NCBI GenBank assembly: GCA_021108035.1
Contig: JAIORQ010000066.1
Location: forward strand, 1 to 64,000
DNA from: Bacteroidales bacterium
GTDB lineage: Bacteria > Bacteroidota > Bacteroidia > Bacteroidales > JAADGE01
DNA: 64,000 nucleotides
Direction: 5' to 3'
Shown here: positions 6,680-49,513 of the stretch, piece by piece
Position numbering within the stretch: the first letter of the stretch is position 1
How the letters are laid out: each line of letters begins with the position of its first letter
Translations under genes and position numbers: made by a program
The notes under the pieces: generated by a model
Told to the model about the DNA's origin: nothing
Database searches by the model: none
The model's input: only the letters and a program-made list of their open reading frames with translations

Positions 6680-6705
6680 ATACGTTTAAAATTTGCAAAT
6701 AATTA

Positions 6706-6743
6706 ATGAGGGTTTCACTTTGAGTGAAGCCCTCATTTTTTTT
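6706..6743 (+). terminator. Rho-independent terminator of the WD40-caspase gene
   Basis: A 14-bp stem: ATGAGGGTTTCACT at 6706-6719, loop TTG, then AGTGAAGCCCTCAT at 6723-6736 (one G-T wobble), followed by eight T residues. It starts 27 bp after the stop codon. Confidence 0.85.
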
Positions 6744-6775
6744 ACGGTATATCGTAAACTTCTGCAGTTATCTTA

Positions 6776-6806
6776 TTCAAGCCTTCACTCCAAGTGAAGG
6801 CTTGAA
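6776..6806. repeat. Perfect 14-bp hairpin, CTTCACT/AGTGAAG family
   Basis: TTCAAGCCTTCACT, loop CCA, then AGTGAAGGCTTGAA: a perfect inverted repeat. It shares the CTTCACT/AGTGAAG core with the terminator 50 bp upstream and with the long inverted repeat at 49399-49467. It overlaps the last codons of the possible minus-strand ORF 6777-7046. It lacks a T-run on either side, so a terminator role is doubtful. Confidence 0.7.
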
Positions 6807-7046
6807 TGATTTTATAGAAGTTGTAACAAACTTTTTTCTTAACCAACGTGTTATATATACAATTAAAAATATCAATCCAAAATTAAATCCTAAAATGAGC
6901 AAAGCATTATTTTGTTCCGTGCTTTTAAAACAATCAGAAAAAGTAATAAACAATATAATTACAGAAACAGGAATAAGAAATAATGAAATAGTAAACATAT
7001 TTCTGAACCAAAAAGACAGGATTTCATAAAGAGATAGTTTATTCAT
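6777..7046 (-). CDS. Possible small two-helix membrane protein
   Basis: An 89-aa ORF with two strongly hydrophobic segments (about residues 18-36 and 48-66), positively charged flanks (ITRWLRKKF after the second) and a plausible start MNKLSLYEIL. I do not recognise a family. The C-terminal SLGVKA is encoded by the hairpin repeat at 6776-6806, as if the original end had been replaced by repeat sequence. A competing 101-aa ORF on the plus strand (6724-7029) looks less protein-like. It lies in the gap between the WD40-caspase gene and recQ. Confidence 0.4.
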   Translation of the reverse strand: MNKLSLYEILSFWFRNMFTISLFLIPVSVIILFITFSDCFKSTEQNNALLILGFNFGLIFLIVYITRWLRKKFVTTSIKSFKPSLGVKA

Positions 7047-37517: not shown

Positions 37518-37550
37518 AGACTTTCCAAGTTTTAAAAACTTGGAAAGTCT
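37518..37550. repeat. REP-like palindrome, copy 1
   Basis: A perfect 33-nt palindrome with 16-bp arms (AGACTTTCCAAGTTTT and complement) around a single base. It sits between the amylase stop codon and the REP-associated transposase start, and is identical to copy 3 on the other side of that gene. Confidence 0.9.
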
Positions 37551-37568: not shown

Positions 37569-38234
37569 ATGTCAACACATTATTTTAAACCGCTTATTCC
37601 CGATAATTTTTTCCATATCCTAAACAGAGGAAATGATAAATCCAAAATTTTCTTCAAAAAAGAAAACTATGATTATTTTTTGAGAAAATATGATGAATAT
37701 TTATCGGATTATTTAACGACTTATGCTTATTGCTTACTTGGCAATCATTTTCATTTTTTAGTCAAACTAAATACTGCAAGACAAATATTGCAAACAGCAA
37801 AAAAGTCAGATGATATTCCTAATAGACTTTCCAAGTCTTTGAGACTTGGAAAGTCTGATTTACCGGAAATTACAGGTTTAATAATCAGTAATCAATTCCG
37901 AAAATTTTTTATGGCATATGCAAAAGCAATTAACAAGCAAGAAAGCAGAACAGGAAGTTTATTTCAAAAGAATTTTGAACGCTTGATTATTAATGATTTG
38001 CAATATTTGAACAATGTGATGCAATATATCCATTATAATCCTGTACATCACGGATTTACTGATGATTATAAAGACTATCCGTACAGTTCTTATGAACGAA
38101 TAATGAAACCAAAACCATCGAAACTGCCTAAAAATGAAATTCTTGAAAATTTCAAAGGAAAAGAAAACTATATTCAATTTCATTCCGAAAACCATTCATT
38201 TAAGATTATTGAAAAATATATTGTCGAATTATAG
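37569..38234 (+). CDS. REP-associated tyrosine transposase (RAYT, Y1/HUH family)
   Basis: A 221-aa single-strand transposase of the IS200/IS605-related Y1_Tnp family. It opens with YFKPLIPDNFFHILNRGNDKSKIF. The HUH metal site is HFH at residues 60-62 (LLGNHFHFLVKL), and the C-terminal helix NNVMQYIHYNPVHHGF with DYPYSSYERI supplies the candidate catalytic Tyr. It is flanked on both sides by identical 33-nt palindromes (37518-37550 and 38233-38265), the REP-RAYT arrangement. The second palindrome overlaps its stop codon. A third palindrome lies inside the gene (37824-37856) and is translated in frame as SKSLRLGKSD. The gene is intact. RAYTs are usually domesticated single-copy genes that mobilise REP elements. 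Confidence 0.88.
   Translation: MSTHYFKPLIPDNFFHILNRGNDKSKIFFKKENYDYFLRKYDEYLSDYLTTYAYCLLGNHFHFLVKLNTARQILQTAKKSDDIPNRLSKSLRLGKSDLPEITGLIISNQFRKFFMAYAKAINKQESRTGSLFQKNFERLIINDLQYLNNVMQYIHYNPVHHGFTDDYKDYPYSSYERIMKPKPSKLPKNEILENFKGKENYIQFHSENHSFKIIEKYIVEL
37824..37856. repeat. REP-like palindrome, copy 2, inside the transposase gene
   Basis: AGACTTTCCAAGTCT, loop TTG, then AGACTTGGAAAGTCT: a perfect 15-bp stem within the RAYT coding sequence, kept in frame. Confidence 0.9.
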
Positions 38235-38265
38235 ACTTTCCAAGTTTTAAAAACTTGGAAAGTCT
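38233..38265. repeat. REP-like palindrome, copy 3
   Basis: Identical in sequence to copy 1 (33 nt, 16-bp arms). It overlaps the last two bases of the RAYT TAG stop codon and ends 14 bp before the next gene's start. Confidence 0.9.
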
Positions 38266-38279
38266 CCTAACAAACAAAC

Positions 38280-40136
38280 ATGAAAAAACTAATCATCATC
38301 ATCCTATTATTTGCAACATCAACAGTCTTTGCACAAAAGATAAATCTTGAACGTGTTGAACCGCCAAATTGGTGGGTTGGTATGAAAAATCAAACCGTTC
38401 AATTGTTAGTTTACGGTGAAAATATTTCATTAACAGATATATCAATCAGTTCCGAAAAAGTCAAACTTCAAAAAATTCATAAAATCGAAAATCCGAATTA
38501 TTTGTTTTTGGATGTTGAAGTTCTTTCGAATGCAAAACCGGGTAGTTTTGACATTGTATTTTCAAAAGGCTTGACAATTATAAAACAAAAGTATGAATTA
38601 AAAGAAAAATCAAGCAGAATCAGAGGGTTTTCAAGTGCAGACCTAATATACTTACTGATGCCGGACAGATTTGCTAACGGAAACCCGAAAAATGACTTTC
38701 CAAGTTTTTCCAACTTGGAAAGTCTGCCAATTTTAGAAAAGCCGGACAGAAATGATCCTGACGGTCGACACGGAGGTGATATTCAAGGTGTTATTGAACA
38801 TTTGAATTACATCAAGGAATTGGGAGTTACGACATTATGGCTCAATCCGACTTTGGAAAATAATAATCCTGCATATTCTTATCACGGTTATGCGATTACT
38901 GATTTTTATAAAACCGATCCTCGTTCCGGCACAAATGAGGATTATAAAAGGCTCTCCAATGAGTTGCATAAAAAAGATATGAAACTGATAATGGATATGA
39001 TCTTTAATCATTGCAGCAGCAATCATTGGTGGATGAAAGACCTCCCGATGAAAGACTGGGCAAACACAAATCCTGATTATCGTTCAAATTTCAGAGGCAG
39101 CACTATTGCTGATATTCATGCATCAAAAGATGATCAAAAACGAATGACGCAAGGTTGGTTTGACAACCGGATGCCGGATTTAAACCAACACAATCATTAT
39201 TTAGCAACTTATCTGATTCAAAACAGTATTTGGTGGATTGAATATGCTGATCTTGACGGAATCAGAATGGATACACAACCCTACCCTTTTAAAGATTTTA
39301 TGTCAGCTTGGGCAAAACAAGTTCGTGAAGAATATCCGGATATCACATTATTGGGAGAAACTTGGTTGCAAAAACCTGCATTTACGGCTTATTTCAGCGG
39401 GAACAGTCCAATATCCGGAGACTATAATTCACATTTGAATTCAATAACCGATTTTCCTCTATATTATGCAACTCGTGATGCTTTTAACCAAAATGACGGA
39501 TGGACAGATGGTTTATCAAGCATATATTACATTTTAGCACAAGATTTCCTTTACGAAAACGCAAATAATAATGTTATCTTTTTGGATAATCATGATTTGA
39601 ATCGATATTTTACTTCCGTTGGTGAAGATGTGAATAAGTTGAAAATGGGTTTAGCATTCTTATTGACTTCAAGAGGTATTCCTATGCTTTATTACGGAAC
39701 AGAAATATTAACAACCGGACACGAGCATAAAGGACACGGACATATCAGAACTGATTTTCCCGGAGGTTGGAAAAATGATAAAATCAATGCTTTTACAAAA
39801 GAAGGACGCACAAAAGAACAAAACAAAATATGCAACTACATCAAAACTATTGCAGATTGGCGTAAAACAAATAAAGCCGTTACCGAAGGTAAACTATTGC
39901 ATTTCGTACCTGAAAATAATGTTTATGTTTTTTTTCGATATACAGATAATGAAGCCGTCATGGTATTATTAAACAATCATAACTCTCAAAAAAGAACCGT
40001 AGATTGTAAACGATTTAATGAAATTTTGAAAGAATATTCCAAAGGAAAGAATATCTTAACAGATGAAATTATTGACATCTCAAAAACAATAACAATTAAT
40101 AAGAAATCGGCATTAATTATTGAGTTAGAAAAATAA
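38280..40136 (+). CDS. SusA-like neopullulanase/cyclomaltodextrinase (GH13)
   Basis: A 618-aa periplasmic enzyme with a signal peptide (MKKLIIIILLFATSTVFAQ). The N-terminal beta domain (VEPPNWWVGMKNQTVQLLVYGENI) is that of cyclomaltodextrinases/neopullulanases. The barrel starts at ADLIYLLMPDRFANGNP and carries DPDGRHGGDIQG, DMIFNHCSSNH, GIRMDTQPY (nucleophile Asp331), LLGETW (Glu360) and DNHDLNR (Asp439). It should break imported malto-oligosaccharides to maltose and glucose. An oddity: residues 139-149 (DFPSFSNLESL) are encoded by a REP-like palindrome inserted between NPKN and the KPDRNDPDGRHGG segment, lengthening a surface loop without breaking the frame. It starts 14 bp after REP copy 3. 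Confidence 0.9.
   Translation: MKKLIIIILLFATSTVFAQKINLERVEPPNWWVGMKNQTVQLLVYGENISLTDISISSEKVKLQKIHKIENPNYLFLDVEVLSNAKPGSFDIVFSKGLTIIKQKYELKEKSSRIRGFSSADLIYLLMPDRFANGNPKNDFPSFSNLESLPILEKPDRNDPDGRHGGDIQGVIEHLNYIKELGVTTLWLNPTLENNNPAYSYHGYAITDFYKTDPRSGTNEDYKRLSNELHKKDMKLIMDMIFNHCSSNHWWMKDLPMKDWANTNPDYRSNFRGSTIADIHASKDDQKRMTQGWFDNRMPDLNQHNHYLATYLIQNSIWWIEYADLDGIRMDTQPYPFKDFMSAWAKQVREEYPDITLLGETWLQKPAFTAYFSGNSPISGDYNSHLNSITDFPLYYATRDAFNQNDGWTDGLSSIYYILAQDFLYENANNNVIFLDNHDLNRYFTSVGEDVNKLKMGLAFLLTSRGIPMLYYGTEILTTGHEHKGHGHIRTDFPGGWKNDKINAFTKEGRTKEQNKICNYIKTIADWRKTNKAVTEGKLLHFVPENNVYVFFRYTDNEAVMVLLNNHNSQKRTVDCKRFNEILKEYSKGKNILTDEIIDISKTITINKKSALIIELEK
38694..38724. repeat. REP-like palindrome, copy 4, inside the SusA-like gene
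   Basis: GACTTTCCAAGTT, loop TTTCC, then AACTTGGAAAGTC: a 13-bp perfect stem. It is translated in frame as DFPSFSNLES, in a different reading frame from copy 2. Confidence 0.9.
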
Positions 40137-40284: not shown

Positions 40285-43200
40285 CTATTCAATAATCAAT
40301 TTTTTAGTTTTTATTTCATTTCCGATATTAACTCTTACAAAATAAAATCCTTTTTTAAGTCCGGAAACATTTATTTTATTTTCATTATTCAAATTTGTTA
40401 TTGTTTGTTCAAAAACAACTTGTCCGTGAATATTAATTAATTCAATTAAAACATTTTGAATATCATAATTTGAAAATTTTAAATTAAAAGTTCCGTTGCA
40501 CGGATTTGGAAAAATATTAATATTAAAATCTTCATTAGTCGTTAAATTCGGTTCAATACCGGTCGGAACATGACCGAACCAATCTAATGCTTCTTGTATC
40601 ATAGTATTGATATCAGCATCAGTAAACTGGGATATATCAAAACTGGTAAAGAATGATTTATAAATAAGGTTATCTAACCAAACAGCACAACTTTTGCCTT
40701 TTGCATAAGCATTTCCGCTGTGAGGTCCGTCTTCAAACAAGAATGAATTATAAGAGCTGATATCAGGATTAGTAACTTCATCGTTATAATATTCCAAGCA
40801 TGTTCCGTTACTAATTACATCGGGGCTGTTAGAATAAACGTTTAATTCCACACCTTCTGTTCCTATCGGAGAATCAGCCACACCAATTATGCTGCCGTCA
40901 GAATAATCATATATCTCGGGACCGCCTATTCCGTCAGTTCCGCCACCGTTTCCTGTTGGAATATGTCTGCCGCGTAAATATGCATAATAGAACTTCATTA
41001 AAGGTCTGTCATACAAATTATAACTATATAAAACATAAGCATTATCTGAAATATCATCTGCTGCCGTAAAGATATTTTTCGGATTTTCGTTTGTTCCGAG
41101 ATCAAGGAAATTATATAAAGCTAAACAGAGAGTATCTTCTGAATCACTGTGTCCAATTGAATTTCCGTACATAAATATTGTTTTATATGAATCGGGGAAC
41201 TTGTATTGGTTATATTCTTCCCAGTTATAAAAATCATAATTTATTCCAAATGCATTAAAACCGGCAGTAAATTTTGAAAATTCTAAACCTGTGTAATCTT
41301 GGTAACCCGGAACTGTACCCGGATGAACGAGAAGAAGGTCTATATTGTCAGTAGGTAATATTTTAAATGAAAAATAATTACTTGGAGCATCTGCCGGCAA
41401 AGTTCCTCTGTTTTGTGCAGGAGAATCATCAGTAACTGCAAAATAATAATTTACTGTTGTGCTTTTAGATATTTCGGGTAATTGATAGATGAAAGTATTA
41501 AATGATTTACCTGCAGAAGCAATCGCTTGCCATCCGTTGCCGATATTATAATAAAGAGAGTCATACAGTATTTCTGCCATATCGGTTACTTCAACAGTTA
41601 TTTCAGGTGTAGTATCGAACGTATTACCTCTTTCATATTCGTAATCAAAATAAGGTGCATATAAATCTTCTCCCTGAAAAAATTTAATTGCAAGTTCGTC
41701 GGTAAGAAGGTTTCCTAATGGTTCTACACCTATGTAAGTCTGGTTTTCAACAATCTCAAACAAATAAGATAATCCAATATCTGTATTATCATTTTGAATA
41801 CCGATTGTTGAACTTCTTCCGTTATCGTGTGGACAAGCACTTCCTGTTTGACCAATTGCTACATCTTTATATTGAAAAATTATATCGCCGTTTTCGTGAA
41901 ATATTGCTTCAAAACAAAGAGTAGTGTCTGTAACCGTACCGTAACAGAACCTAAAATTATGCCATTCAACAACGCAATAACGGTCCGGTGCAGTACCGAA
42001 AGTTTGGAAATAAATATCTCCGGTACCTTCATCTGCATGTAAATCATCCCAATAAACTGCAATTAGAGCCGGCATTGAGGAAAAACCGGGTATAGGAAAC
42101 ATGTAATTAAACATATTTCCGTCGTAATTCCATCCAACATTAGGATAATGATTATACCAAGTATTGTCAGTAAGAAGGATTTCGCCGTTAGTATCTACAT
42201 AAAAATCAGTCCTGTCGATTCCGTAATACGGAAAAGAAAAGCCAAAAGGAATTGGTGGAGACATATTATCATCGCCCGAAAAAGTAACACCGGGTTCGTA
42301 CATAATTGCAGATTCTCCGGTTTCACTTATTTCTATCCAGTTATAAACAGGTCCTCCGTCTTCTTGGCTGTCAATCCATTCATAACCCATAGCATCAGGA
42401 CCGCCTGTTCCGTAATGTATAACTACTTCTGTTTCTATAATCATTGTATCATTATCGGGATTTTGATCTCCTGTAAGGGCTGTCCAAATTTTTACTGTAT
42501 AAGTTCCGATTTCATCGGGTGTCCATGCTCCTGAAAACGAAACTTGGTCGATTGCACCTGCAGCAATTCCACCGGAATAAGAACTCAATGCAGAATATGC
42601 AAGAACTGCCAATGTATCTCGAATTTCACAATTAAGTTGAAAACTTTCTGTAATATCATCGGTACCGAAATTTTTAATTGTAAAAGTCGGAATTATTTCT
42701 GTACCTGTAAAGGTATAATCTGTCGGAATTTCAATTGAAAGCACACCAACATCATTTGCCGCAATTTCAGTAACAATTACATCAACATCATCTGATGCGG
42801 TTGCTTTTCCTAATCCGTCGTCAACTTCAAAAGTAAGAGTTTCTGTACCGAACCAACCGGGAGAAGTAAAAGTTACTTCAAAACCGTCAATTGCTGCAAG
42901 TACATTTGTATTTCCTGTTACTGATAAAGTTGAAATATCAGGATTAATAACTTCAATGTATTGTGAAAAGTCCACTATTAATTCATCGTCTTGTTCAAAA
43001 GTGAAGTTATCAGGAAGAATAATTGTAGGTGCAAGCTGTCCTACTTTTACATCATCAACAATTAGAGCGTAACTGTCTTGATTCCACTCAATTGCAAGAT
43101 AAATATTTTGCCCTGCATAAGCAGATAAATCATAAGAATATAATGAATAGGAATTGTCAAGACCGATAACACTTTCTAAAGTTACGGTAAAATCTCCTGT

Positions 43201-43566
43201 TGCATTTCCAGTAGCGGAAAGTTTAACATTCATGTCTTCTACTCCATACCATGATCTTCCATAAAAATTAAAGAAATCACCGGCTTCAATTGTTACTTGT
43301 GGTGTTATTAACCAATCATGTCCGCCACTTTCAGTACATTTTACACTTGCCATCCAAGCTCCTGTATGTGCATAAGCATCTTCTAATGCCTCCCACTGTT
43401 TTCCGTCACCGTCAATATCATATATTGTCCAACCTGCGGGTATTACTCCGCCTTCAAATCCTTCATCAATTTTCCAGATTTTGTTTTGTGCTTTGACTGA
43501 TAAAGACAGAAAAAAAATAAAAAAAGTAAAAGAGAATAATAAGGTTGTAAATTTTGTATTTTTCAT
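40285..43566 (-). CDS. Large T9SS-secreted protein, function unknown (paralogue 1)
   Basis: A 1093-aa secreted protein. After the signal peptide comes a MAM/choice-of-anchor-J-type beta module (EGGVIPAGWTIYDIDGDGKQW...WLITPQVTI), a short Ig-like segment, a CARDB-type domain (PTFTIKNFGTDDITESFQLN), and a beta region (WIDSQEDGGPVYNWIEI...FGFSFPYYGIDRTDFYVDTNGEI). A roughly 290-residue alpha/beta-like module follows, starting IDLLLVHPGTVPGY and ending DINTMIQEALDWFGHVP. The last 80 residues are a type A T9SS sorting domain (NIFPNPCNGTFNLKF...GLKKGFYFVRVNIGN...KLIIE). The next gene upstream is a close paralogue. I recognise no catalytic motif. The LLLVHPG module might be a degenerate peptidase or amidotransferase-like fold, but that is a guess. 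Confidence 0.8.
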   Translation of the reverse strand: MKNTKFTTLLFSFTFFIFFLSLSVKAQNKIWKIDEGFEGGVIPAGWTIYDIDGDGKQWEALEDAYAHTGAWMASVKCTESGGHDWLITPQVTIEAGDFFNFYGRSWYGVEDMNVKLSATGNATGDFTVTLESVIGLDNSYSLYSYDLSAYAGQNIYLAIEWNQDSYALIVDDVKVGQLAPTIILPDNFTFEQDDELIVDFSQYIEVINPDISTLSVTGNTNVLAAIDGFEVTFTSPGWFGTETLTFEVDDGLGKATASDDVDVIVTEIAANDVGVLSIEIPTDYTFTGTEIIPTFTIKNFGTDDITESFQLNCEIRDTLAVLAYSALSSYSGGIAAGAIDQVSFSGAWTPDEIGTYTVKIWTALTGDQNPDNDTMIIETEVVIHYGTGGPDAMGYEWIDSQEDGGPVYNWIEISETGESAIMYEPGVTFSGDDNMSPPIPFGFSFPYYGIDRTDFYVDTNGEILLTDNTWYNHYPNVGWNYDGNMFNYMFPIPGFSSMPALIAVYWDDLHADEGTGDIYFQTFGTAPDRYCVVEWHNFRFCYGTVTDTTLCFEAIFHENGDIIFQYKDVAIGQTGSACPHDNGRSSTIGIQNDNTDIGLSYLFEIVENQTYIGVEPLGNLLTDELAIKFFQGEDLYAPYFDYEYERGNTFDTTPEITVEVTDMAEILYDSLYYNIGNGWQAIASAGKSFNTFIYQLPEISKSTTVNYYFAVTDDSPAQNRGTLPADAPSNYFSFKILPTDNIDLLLVHPGTVPGYQDYTGLEFSKFTAGFNAFGINYDFYNWEEYNQYKFPDSYKTIFMYGNSIGHSDSEDTLCLALYNFLDLGTNENPKNIFTAADDISDNAYVLYSYNLYDRPLMKFYYAYLRGRHIPTGNGGGTDGIGGPEIYDYSDGSIIGVADSPIGTEGVELNVYSNSPDVISNGTCLEYYNDEVTNPDISSYNSFLFEDGPHSGNAYAKGKSCAVWLDNLIYKSFFTSFDISQFTDADINTMIQEALDWFGHVPTGIEPNLTTNEDFNINIFPNPCNGTFNLKFSNYDIQNVLIELINIHGQVVFEQTITNLNNENKINVSGLKKGFYFVRVNIGNEIKTKKLIIE

Positions 43567-43697: not shown

Positions 43698-46600
43698 TTA
43701 TTTATTAATTATAATTCTTTGCGTAACAAAAATTTTATCATTAGTGAATATTAAAATGTAAATTCCCTGTTCTGCAATATTAACAGTATTAGTATTATTG
43801 TTAAGAACTTGTGTTTTAACAACTTTACCTGCAATATCAATTATTTCGAGATTGAAAGTTTCGTTAACACTTACATTAAATACTCCGTTTGAAGGATTCG
43901 GGTAAATGCTTATTCCGTTATCTGATAATTCATTAACACTTACCGGTGTCATGTGAACAATTTCAGTAATTGCTGTACCGGCAACAGTAACGGAATGCCC
44001 TGTATAGTCATCAAAACCTGTTGCAGTAACTGTATAAGGATATGTTCCGTCTTCAAGGCTAATAGTGGCAATACCGCCTGCGGCTGTTGTTATAGTGTTA
44101 CTGTTTATTAAAATTTCAGCACCGTCAATTGCATTTGTTCCGTCACTAACATTGAAAGTAACTATATAATACGGATTTGGAGATACCGTAACAGTAACTG
44201 TCCAGTTTTGTGTAGTGAGACCATCTCCGGCAGTTACAGTATAAGTAACAGGGCTTGTAAAATCGTTAGGAGTTGTACCGCTGACTTGTGTAACACTGCT
44301 GACCTCAGCAACAGCTCCTGCGGAAAGTTCAAATTCAGCAATTAAAGCAGTAACATCAGTACCGTTAAAAACTTCAATATTTACTGTATGTGCAACATCA
44401 TCAATATTTGCTGCACCTGTTTGTTCCGGAAATGAATAAGTTAAAATATCAGTAGCAGTACTTTGCTCATAACCAAACCAATCCAAAGCTTCCTGAATCA
44501 TATTATTTATATCAGCATCACTTGTAAACTGTGAAATATCAAAACTTATAAAGAACGATTTATATATTAAGTTATCTAACCAAATTCCGCAACCGTTACC
44601 TTTTGAAAAAGCATCTCCGCTGTGAGGCCCGTCTTCAAAAAGGAATGAACCCCAAGAGCTGATTTCCGGATTAGTAACTTCATCTTCATACCATGACGGG
44701 CAACTTCTATTATAAATATTATCCGGGCTGTTAGAATAAACAGGAATTTCAAGTTCAAATGTTCCGATAGGAGAACCGCTCATACCAATTATACTGCCGT
44801 CTGAATAATCGTAAATATCAGGACCGCCAATTCCGTCAGTTCCTCCGAAATAGGGAGGATTTTCTTGAGGAATGTATCCGCCTCTTATATATGCCGAATA
44901 AAATTTGTTAATACTTCTGTTGTTTGGCAAAGCGTGTACAGCACCCGGGAGACCATCGGATGCAGTAAATATATTTTTCGGATGTTCGTTAGTTCCTGTA
45001 TCAAGAAAATCCATTAAAGCTAAACCGAGAGTATCTTCTTCGTCCCCGTGTCCCATACTTCTTCCGTACATAAATATTATATCATAATTGTCTGTAAAAC
45101 GAAATTCATCATATTCTTCCCAATCGTATATATCGTAAACAATACTTTTACTGTCAAATACTTCTGTATATTTATCAAATTCCTTATTATCATAATCCTG
45201 ACTTCCTGAATAAGCAAGAAGGACTTTTACATCGTTTGATGTAGGCAGAATTTGAATTGAATAGTATTCTGCAGGAGCATTTTCAGGTAAAGTTCTTCTA
45301 AGATTTTCACCGGAATTATCATCAGCAGCAAAATAATAATCTACTACTGTACTGTTCGGAATTTCGGGAAGTTCATAATAATACATATTCGGCTCCTCAA
45401 AACTTGAATGTGTAACAGCCTGCCATCCTGAACCTGTATTATAATAAAGTGAGTCGTAACGAACCCCTGTCATATCTGATATATTTATCTCAAATTCGGG
45501 AGTATTATCAAAAGTATTACCGCTAATATCATAACTAAAAACAGGAGGCTGGTTAGTACAATAAAATTTTATTGCAAGACTATCATTAAGCAGGTTTCCT
45601 ACAGGATCAACACCAAGATAATTGAATTCATCGTCAAGAAGTTCGAATAAATAGCTTAGCCCTATATCATAAGTATCATTTTGTATTCCTATTGTGCAGC
45701 TTTGTCCGTTATCGTGCGGATATACGGTTCCTGTTTGTCCTATTGCTACATCTTTATACTGGAATTTCATTTCTCCGTTTTCATAAAAAATAACTTCAAA
45801 AGTAAGACTTGTATCTTCAACCGTACCACCGTCAAATCTGAGATTATTCCACTGTACAACACAGTAGCGATCAGGTTCTGACCCAAAAGTTTGAAAATAA
45901 ACATCTCCTGTACCTTCGTCAGCAATTAAGTCGTCCCAGTAAACAGCAACAAGTGCAGGCGCATAAGCATTACCAGGCAATTGTTCATAATGGTTAATCA
46001 TATTACCGTCATGATTCCAACCTACATTAGGATAACTGTTATACCAATTATTGTCGCCGAGATAAATTTCGCCGTTTGTATCAACATAAAAAGATGTACG
46101 ATTAATACCGTAAAAAGGAAAATCAAAACCAAAATCAATAGGTTCAGAGAAATTATCATCGCCGTAAAAAGTCGGCATTCCTCCATACATAATTGCAGAT
46201 TCGCCTGTTGTGCTGATTTCAATCCAATCATACTCAGGGCCTCCGTCAACTTCACTGTCAATCCATTGATAACCGAACGCATCGGGACCGCCTGTGCCTT
46301 CATGTTGAACAACTTCAGTTTCAGTAATTATTGTATCATTTTCGTTATTTTCATCACCTGAAAGAACTGTCCAAATTTTTACAGAATAAATTCCGATTTC
46401 ATCCGGTGTCCATGCTCCTGCAAAAGAAACTTGGTCAGTTTCACCTACCAAAAGCCCGGCGGAATATGAACTTAGTGCAGAATAAGCAAGAACTCCCACT
46501 GAATCCCTGATTTCGCAATTAAGTTGAAAACTTTCTGTAATATCAGAAGTACCAAAATTTTTAATTGTAAAGGTCGGAAAAACTTCTGTCTCAATAAAAC

Positions 46601-47207
46601 AATATTGTTCGGGAATTTCAACAGAGAGCATTCCGACATCAGCACTTCCTGTTTCATAAGCATCAACTGAAATATCATCTAAATTCCAAGCATCTGCGTA
46701 CCCGTTTGCAGATGTATGAACAAAAGCAATATAAACAGTTTCACCTGCATAATCAGGTAAATCATTAAGTAAAACCTGAGTCCATGCAGAAGGAGTGTCT
46801 TCGGGATTAGTGTATACTGTATCTGTAAAATTCTCAGGAGCTGTACCTGTTGTAGATATCATAACATATTCAGGACCGTCATTTGCATATCCCCAAGTTG
46901 TTTTTTCCCAAAAAATTATTTCAATATAATGACTTGCCGGGACAGCAATTGCCGATGTTATAAGCCATTCTTCCATAGCATAACCTCCCTCTCCGTCTTG
47001 TGAAAATGCTTTGGAAGCACCGGAGTGAGGAGTGGAAGTGCTTTGCATCCATGTCTCACCTGCGGTTTGATCTCCAAGATTAAGTACTGTCCAACCTGTA
47101 GGCGGAAAAGCATCTTCAAAACCTTCGGTTAATATATTTGTTTGTGCATTAGCGGAATAAATAAATATCAATAATATTAAAACCGGTAAAATATATAATT
47201 TTCTCAT
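43698..47207 (-). CDS. Large T9SS-secreted protein, function unknown (paralogue 2)
   Basis: A 1169-aa secreted paralogue of the 40285-43566 product with the same module order: signal peptide, MAM/choice-of-anchor-J-like domain (EGFEDAFPPTGWTVLNLGDQT), CARDB-type domain (PTFTIKNFGTSDITESFQLN), the FGFDFPFYGINRTSFYVDTNGEI beta region, and the LLAYSGSQDYDNKEF...ADINNMIQEALDWFGY module. It differs by two inserted beta domains before the tail: a DUF5018-like domain (VTYTVTAGDGLTTQNWTVTVTVS) and a carboxypeptidase-regulatory-like repeat (GAEILINSNTITTAAGGIATIS). The T9SS type A tail is IYPNPSNGVFNVSVNE...IIINK. Tandem duplication followed by domain gain is the simplest history. The role is unknown. 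Confidence 0.8.
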   Translation of the reverse strand: MRKLYILPVLILLIFIYSANAQTNILTEGFEDAFPPTGWTVLNLGDQTAGETWMQSTSTPHSGASKAFSQDGEGGYAMEEWLITSAIAVPASHYIEIIFWEKTTWGYANDGPEYVMISTTGTAPENFTDTVYTNPEDTPSAWTQVLLNDLPDYAGETVYIAFVHTSANGYADAWNLDDISVDAYETGSADVGMLSVEIPEQYCFIETEVFPTFTIKNFGTSDITESFQLNCEIRDSVGVLAYSALSSYSAGLLVGETDQVSFAGAWTPDEIGIYSVKIWTVLSGDENNENDTIITETEVVQHEGTGGPDAFGYQWIDSEVDGGPEYDWIEISTTGESAIMYGGMPTFYGDDNFSEPIDFGFDFPFYGINRTSFYVDTNGEIYLGDNNWYNSYPNVGWNHDGNMINHYEQLPGNAYAPALVAVYWDDLIADEGTGDVYFQTFGSEPDRYCVVQWNNLRFDGGTVEDTSLTFEVIFYENGEMKFQYKDVAIGQTGTVYPHDNGQSCTIGIQNDTYDIGLSYLFELLDDEFNYLGVDPVGNLLNDSLAIKFYCTNQPPVFSYDISGNTFDNTPEFEINISDMTGVRYDSLYYNTGSGWQAVTHSSFEEPNMYYYELPEIPNSTVVDYYFAADDNSGENLRRTLPENAPAEYYSIQILPTSNDVKVLLAYSGSQDYDNKEFDKYTEVFDSKSIVYDIYDWEEYDEFRFTDNYDIIFMYGRSMGHGDEEDTLGLALMDFLDTGTNEHPKNIFTASDGLPGAVHALPNNRSINKFYSAYIRGGYIPQENPPYFGGTDGIGGPDIYDYSDGSIIGMSGSPIGTFELEIPVYSNSPDNIYNRSCPSWYEDEVTNPEISSWGSFLFEDGPHSGDAFSKGNGCGIWLDNLIYKSFFISFDISQFTSDADINNMIQEALDWFGYEQSTATDILTYSFPEQTGAANIDDVAHTVNIEVFNGTDVTALIAEFELSAGAVAEVSSVTQVSGTTPNDFTSPVTYTVTAGDGLTTQNWTVTVTVSPNPYYIVTFNVSDGTNAIDGAEILINSNTITTAAGGIATISLEDGTYPYTVTATGFDDYTGHSVTVAGTAITEIVHMTPVSVNELSDNGISIYPNPSNGVFNVSVNETFNLEIIDIAGKVVKTQVLNNNTNTVNIAEQGIYILIFTNDKIFVTQRIIINK

Positions 47208-49239: not shown

Positions 49240-49398
49240 TAAAAAAATAATGATGAAAAAAAGGTTTACATATATACAACGTGAGTATTTTGTTAAACAG
49301 CAAAAAAGGTTGGCAAAAAGTCTTTATTGTATATAAATAAAGGGGATATTAGAAAAAATTTTAATTATTTTTTTTTATAAAATTACCTAAAATCCGCA

Positions 49399-49467
49399 AG
49401 TCAAGGCTTCACTCTTTAATAATCAGACATTTAAGATAAAAATATTAGTGCAAGTGAAGCCTTGACT
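49399..49467. repeat. Long inverted repeat, CTTCACT/AGTGAAG family
   Basis: The 15-bp arms AGTCAAGGCTTCACT (49399-49413) and AGTGAAGCCTTGACT (49453-49467) are perfect complements across a 39-nt loop. The arm core matches the hairpins at 6706-6743 and 6776-6806. This is the main content of the 334-bp gap between the TPR regulator and the T9SS amylase. Confidence 0.8.
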
Positions 49468-49513
49468 ATCAACTTTTTAAATATTTTATTGCGAATTTAT
49501 GGAATTATAAAAA

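Follow-up and report, generated by a model that had tools for sequence, protein, structure and literature searches.

A REP-like palindrome in frame within the lengthened loop of a SusA-like GH13 gene, beside a RAYT gene, in Bacteroidales

In a Bacteroidales genome (G000), a SusA-like GH13 protein has a lengthened loop that probably derives from a 33-nt REP-like palindrome of the neighbouring RAYT's family, of which a copy would have entered this variable part of the susA-like gene. The stretch analysed (the window) spans 64,000 nucleotides. The palindrome was identified from its letters, the loop is longer than in close relatives, which lack the palindrome at this place, and the palindrome recurs in this loop within the genus, beside a RAYT gene. 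The features concerned are as follows.

37518-37550: palindrome copy upstream of the RAYT gene, 33 nt
37569-38234, + strand: RAYT (REP-associated tyrosine transposase-like HuH protein), 221 aa, with HFH at 60-62 and Y153 in YIHYNP
37824-37856: palindrome copy within the RAYT ORF, in another frame than the GH13 copy, coding RLSKSLRLGKS
38233-38265: palindrome copy over the RAYT stop codon
38280-40136, + strand: SusA-like GH13 cyclomaltodextrinase/neopullulanase, 618 aa (Pfam Alpha-amylase, Cyc-maltodext_N and Cyc-maltodext_C)
38694-38724: palindrome copy in the GH13 gene, with a 31-nt core, 12-nt arms and the 7-nt centre TTTTCCA, coding DFPSFSNLESL

By its three-domain profile and closest solved structures, the GH13 product is placed with the SusA/GH13 cyclomaltodextrinases, and a starch-degrading activity is predicted for it. 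The three best distinct solved relatives include SusA (9fyz) and a cyclomaltodextrinase (1h3g). Among solved GH13 homologues, the loop is variable in sequence, and its length differs by one or two residues. The stretch around it presumably lies near the calcium site (N-x-N-x-x-N-D ... G-G-D). An AlphaFold model of the protein from 4 sequences had a pLDDT of 43. The neighbouring long genes at 40285-43566 and 43698-47207 of the window are a diverged tandem duplication, with 72-85% DNA identity in the listed blocks.

The palindrome in the GH13 gene reads GACTTTCCAAGT TTTTCCA ACTTGGAAAGTC, and both 12-nt arms are perfect. It lies in frame, starts at the codon of Asp139, and its peptide directly precedes DPDGRHGGDIQG. 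A preliminary description had reported a 31-nt palindrome in frame in a SusA-like gene, its peptide just before this motif and its frame different from that of the RAYT copy; letters, arms, Pfam profiles and solved relatives all agree with that reading. A pattern search returned 4 copies in the window and 6 in the G000 genome, with none for the reversed pattern in either. A scan of genome_contigs gave at least 120 stretches with the palindrome, with 135 copies among the matches listed. In these 135 copies, all from other genomes, the base preceding GACTTT was A at 94% of ends (both ends counted), so the element is 33 nt long, AGAC...GTCT, or 11 codons, with the 31-nt core of the GH13 gene inside it. 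In the susA copy of G000, the leading A is replaced by T, the third base of an Asn codon common to the aligned relatives. Folded as single-stranded DNA, the 33-mer gave -13 kcal/mol (z -6.7). One first-order Markov shuffle of the window contained no palindrome with arms of at least 13 nt; the same shuffling produced none for 331 kb of G305 and 2 for a further 393 kb of G000. The GT[AG]G tetranucleotide of classical REPs is absent at the foot of the hairpin, which is AGAC...GTCT. Inverted repeats at 6705-6737, 6773-6809 and 49377-49489 of the window have common AGTGAAGSCYT-like arms and are perhaps a further palindrome family.

Loop length, counted from PDRF to HGGD, could be read for 92 of the 95 homologues examined (L385, L388 and L407 were unreadable). 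These 95 comprised 8 loops from the genus, the nearest outgroup (L018) and 86 order-level homologues, mostly the highest-ranked, a few being passed over, from a pool of 158 matching genomes plus 5 added genus genomes. The loop had 33 residues in 81 of the 92 and 31-35 in 89; all 89 were palindrome-free, and their longest perfect arm was 10 nt. Only three loops exceeded 35 residues, exactly the three with the palindrome, all in the genus of the window.

G000 (window): palindrome-bearing loop of 40 aa
G297 (L109, JAJRUH010000013.1): palindrome-bearing loop of 39 aa
G204 (L115, JAADGE010000041.1): palindrome-bearing loop of 37 aa

The alignment thus bears out the earlier proposal of a loop that is extended relative to SusA homologues, and a loop of equal length with unrelated DNA was found in none of the 92. 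The same description credited the palindrome with adding 11 residues. It does code for 11, but the loop is only 7 residues longer than in empty homologues. Within the genus, 9 of 14 genomes have a susA-like gene, 8 are readable in the loop part, and 3 of these 8 carry the palindrome. The closest relative found, G301 (92% nucleotide identity to G000), has the short loop. Because only the long loops carry the palindrome and the closest relative has a short one, we take the loop to be palindrome-derived, though not through clean insertion. An ancient loop lost in relatives was also considered and rejected: several independent losses would be needed, each restoring the 33-residue spacing. We likewise reject, as vanishingly improbable, a loop built by point changes and small indels in which the palindrome is coincidental. 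Solved homologues do vary here, yet all 24 arm letters match the copies flanking the RAYT gene, the reversed pattern found nothing, and no such palindrome occurs in the other 89 loops.

The three occupied loops also record what was lost. Although 11 codons entered, net growth was only 7 residues in G000, 6 in G297 and 4 in G204, a net target loss of 12-21 nt across all three cases. In G000, the codons after Asn-Asp are replaced by the element, and Ile-Leu-Glu-Lys comes next; in G204, Glu-Lys directly follows the palindrome. The G297 palindrome lies five codons further on than in the other two, and the equivalent of Ile-Leu-Glu-Lys-Ala is missing. Letters shared with the likely empty site occur at one junction each: for G000 and G204 these are GAC, from the ND codons, and for G297 TTGGAAA, after which the register is unchanged.

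On a tree built without the loop, parsimony gives three changes of the palindrome trait. Within the genus, the susA loop was hit at least twice, and three times by parsimony: G297 requires its own event, though G000 and G204 could share one through exchange. Import of the G000 palindrome loop by recombination from a relative is unlikely in our estimation, for all that several features point that way. G000-G301 identity dips to 74-86% in windows around the loop, compared with 89-100% downstream of column 720; G000 and G204 have the left junction and a derived EKPDRN in common; and across columns 240-405 G000 is slightly closer to G204 than G301 is (66.0% vs 61.1%). This order reverses in columns 480-600 (70.8% for G000-G204 vs 77.5% for G301-G204), columns 600-720 are equal at 80.0%, and exchange would still require an original insertion.

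In the adjacent RAYT, H60-F61-H62 and Y153 were invariant across 10 aligned proteins, and Y153 is the putative catalytic Tyr by its match to the published Y motif. The AlphaFold model had a pLDDT of 85, and its best PDB match was 4er8, a RAYT-REP hairpin structure (E 2.8e-8, TMt 0.70). NF047646, the sole NCBIfam match at E up to 1, scored 61.9 bits (E 5.9e-17), under its curated cut-off of 80; a Pfam profile search gave no match to Y1_Tnp. The gene is flanked by its own palindromes, and further copies lie elsewhere in the genome.

Across the G000 genome, palindromes track RAYT loci. Counting the window RAYT itself, the genome has nine matches to it, two of which are parts of a single locus. 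Among the seven other loci, L008, L009 and L011 repeat the arrangement of palindromes upstream, inside and downstream with different arms, L012-L014 have palindromes with their own arms in or near the gene, and one (L010) has no palindrome. From these patterns we infer that the RAYT mobilises the palindrome. A RAYT gene stands upstream of susA in 6 genus loci, 3 of them with the insert. Neither a RAYT in the flanks nor an insert was seen at 28 other susA loci (G303 and G304 of the genus and 26 at order level); flanks were checked up to 1.5 kb, some being shorter, and the loci are related and thus not independent. The nearest outgroup, L018, was left out of this count as its upstream flank has only 269 nt. 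The G297 susA copy, with its AAGTTTTAAAAACTT centre, mismatches the palindromes inside and behind its adjacent RAYT gene. Since these nearest copies have left arms of the CCGAGT type, they were not, in their present form, the template of the susA copy. Separately, a Saprospiraceae MAG (L158:1270-2434) has seven AGACTTTCC palindrome copies within 1.2 kb around a RAYT gene, some in an open 370-aa frame.

The element is widespread. Hosts among the matches listed were mostly Bacteroidota, with some Chlorobiota, one Fodinibius and one Thermoanaerobaculia genome. Of the 135 listed copies, 91 are intergenic; 10 others lie at the edge of a gene, 10 fall within weak ORFs, and 24 are contained in ORFs of at least 200 aa, the last to be compared with a coding fraction of 0.87. 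Where the 3' end of a neighbouring gene lay in the fetched stretch, 44 of 72 intergenic copies were within 20 nt of it. By these positions the element resembles classical REPs: a short palindrome, mostly extragenic and often beside stop codons. At up to 3 mismatches, the 33-mer had 5-39 copies in each of 11 genomes searched whole (reversed control, 0); the family was present in 11 of 14 genus genomes, with 1-8 copies each, and in none of 6 other genomes of the order. In the fetched genus loci, copies that belong neither to a RAYT nor to susA lie 4-15 nt from a gene 3' end; a few of these overlap reverse-strand ORFs that are short or extended at the N terminus and may be spurious. One copy between convergent genes, groES-like and nadB-like by eye, sits at the same place in two species (G000:C83, L006:1501-1531; G298:C119, L335:1501-1533). 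Because of this shared position, some intergenic copies are perhaps old and perhaps retained as terminators. Two remote G000 copies had no same-place match in G301. The exact palindrome had no match in viral_contigs, leaving phage carriage without support.

The 24 copies in strong ORFs include 2 in susA (G297 and G204), 3 in RAYTs and 3 in the doubtful 370-aa ORF of L158, and those of L112 and L113 represent one homologous site. They read DFPSFxNLESL in 14 cases, RLSKxxKLGKS in 9 and TFQVFK... in 1. As this last frame is free of stops in 18 of the 24 copies, its rarity suggests selection on the peptide, unless it reflects small numbers. Of 20 carrier proteins scanned, 17 had a Pfam match at E up to 0.001 (L144 and L170 below the curated cut-off). 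Carriers identified in this way include PheRS-beta, a Mur ligase, a class I tRNA synthetase, PFOR, a heavy-metal (P-type) ATPase and restriction enzymes. The palindrome had been put forward as a source of new loops, and as a description of sequence this holds: in other genomes, unrelated proteins have it in frame as well. Palindromes inside ORFs of at least 200 aa numbered 10 across 331 kb of G305 and 7 across 457 kb of G000, three of the latter within RAYTs; these densities are biased upward and not a fair rate, the contigs having been picked for RAYTs or known copies. In 200 kb of E. coli K-12, used as a control, there were none in such ORFs and 2 in weaker ones. Two palindromes from two other families are in frame in a G000 ORF of 1511 aa counted from its first start (L312:961-5532, minus strand), where they code DLTGFENLSG and NFAKGSNFGKV.

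Four other carrier loops were compared with relatives. In PFOR, the net gain was 11 residues over two empty homologues of 78-79% identity; one relative (L257) has another palindrome, ACTCTAACAGGGCTTcAAGCCCTGTTAGAGT, at the same place, and another (L263) has a loop of similar length with no palindrome. The Mur ligase loop is 7 residues longer than the commonest linker. Its relatives L193-L195 carry AAGTTTACTAAACCT-type palindromes at the same site and in the same frame, and L198 and L199 reach equal length without a palindrome. The AAGTTTACTAAACCT type occurred in 3 of 6 searched genomes at 1-2 copies each, and the RAYT query found nothing beside the remote Mur-type palindrome copies in G321 and G323 (L254, L255). 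We do not claim a swap of one palindrome for another in the Mur ligase, as arm-to-arm correction of an imperfect palindrome would also explain the data. In PheRS-beta, the palindrome replaces a linker of near-equal length (net +1 to +3 aa), and relatives show no different palindrome at that place. The P-type ATPase loop is 7 to 8 residues longer than the short form, in a gene with three different in-frame palindromes; relatives L266, L268 and L269 have longer loops (59 vs 43) without a palindrome. A further relative, L265, has a 71-nt perfect palindrome with 35-nt arms, in frame, at or beside the site of the 33-nt palindrome of L058. Altogether, for 3 of the 4 compared loops, relatives have some other palindrome in the same position or next to it. 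Judged by these alignments, palindromes are one source of loop change among others in the four proteins, and the susA set is the clean case.

The course of events that we favour begins with a copy of the RAYT-family palindrome entering the variable loop of the susA-like gene. The frame would survive, as the element is 11 codons long and stop-free in that frame, disrupted genes presumably being lost. About four target codons (12 nt) would be lost at or after entry, so that the G000 loop grew by 7 residues and not 11. If the RAYT does the copying, it may act on the single-stranded hairpin by HuH Y1 chemistry, and the short junction identities may assist. HuH Y1 insertion, as in IS200/IS605, is not by itself expected to delete target bases, and the net loss in all three susA cases therefore counts against simple Y1 insertion. 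Insertion of the element into coding sequence, as first described, holds for the palindrome-derived loop and needs amending for the lost target codons, with movement by the RAYT a probable rather than an observed step. The main rival, which we consider possible but doubtful, is copying independent of the RAYT, in which fork or break repair switches template at the hairpin via short identities and replaces a few target bases. It would account for the codons missing in every susA event, for the one junction per event on shared letters and for the near-equal replacement in PheRS-beta. It fits poorly with the PFOR gain of exactly 11 codons and with palindromes following RAYT loci in G000, and 3-nt identities such as GAC are weak. 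Returning to the element as a RAYT-family palindrome, we tentatively suggest that in Bacteroidota, palindromes of about 33 nt linked to RAYTs act as a ready reserve of 11-codon cassettes. These may repeatedly enter and partly replace the same tolerant loops in both metabolic and housekeeping proteins, with families alternating at one loop, by hairpin-guided replacement and not clean transposition, so that the elements would partly drive loop evolution.

Intragenic REPs with GTAG or CGTC tags were the subject of a 2013 study, reportedly by Di Nocera et al. Passages of PMC3733652 (2013) place such REPs within ORFs of many known proteins, tRNA synthetases included, describe different REPs at about one site in two Xanthomonas recB genes, and discuss flexible linkers or loops. 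The present element is likewise a short palindrome inside protein ORFs; unlike those passages' REPs, it has neither tag, is symmetric with AGAC/GTCT ends, has few copies in the genome (6), and is accompanied by loss of target codons. In its account of TnpAREP subclass 2.4, PMC6006769 (2018) describes REPs in frame inside the transposase gene in Cyanobacteria and Bacteroidetes. Of the motifs given there (NH[IFV]H, WQ and YIxNNP), NHFH of the window RAYT fits, with FQ for WQ and YIHYNP for YIxNNP. The element described here lacks the GT[AG]G foot, and its case concerns a metabolic gene next to the RAYT. Rickettsia palindromic elements (Ogata et al. 2000, 2002; via PMC10969869 and PMC3733652) also lie in frame in many unrelated protein genes. 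They are about 150 bp according to PMC10969869, and the passages on them name no RAYT; the present element has 33 nt and an adjacent RAYT gene. No paper on the AGAC...GTCT family was found among the matches listed from the open-access literature. In the parts of these sources that bear on the matter, intragenic REPs (PMC3733652) and REPs within RAYT genes (PMC6006769) are already known. New here is the AGAC-footed 33-nt element, found widely across Bacteroidota, which recurs beside its RAYT in a single loop and is accompanied by lost target codons.

The repeated hits on one loop and the lost target codons deserve attention. According to a passage of PMC8266576, the mechanisms of REP dissemination are poorly understood, and the missing codons bear on how REPs spread. 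With empty sites in close relatives, the susA loops are well-bracketed cases of new protein segments from mobile DNA in bacteria. The process is countable across thousands of genomes, given the 11-codon length of the element and the sequence tags of its families.
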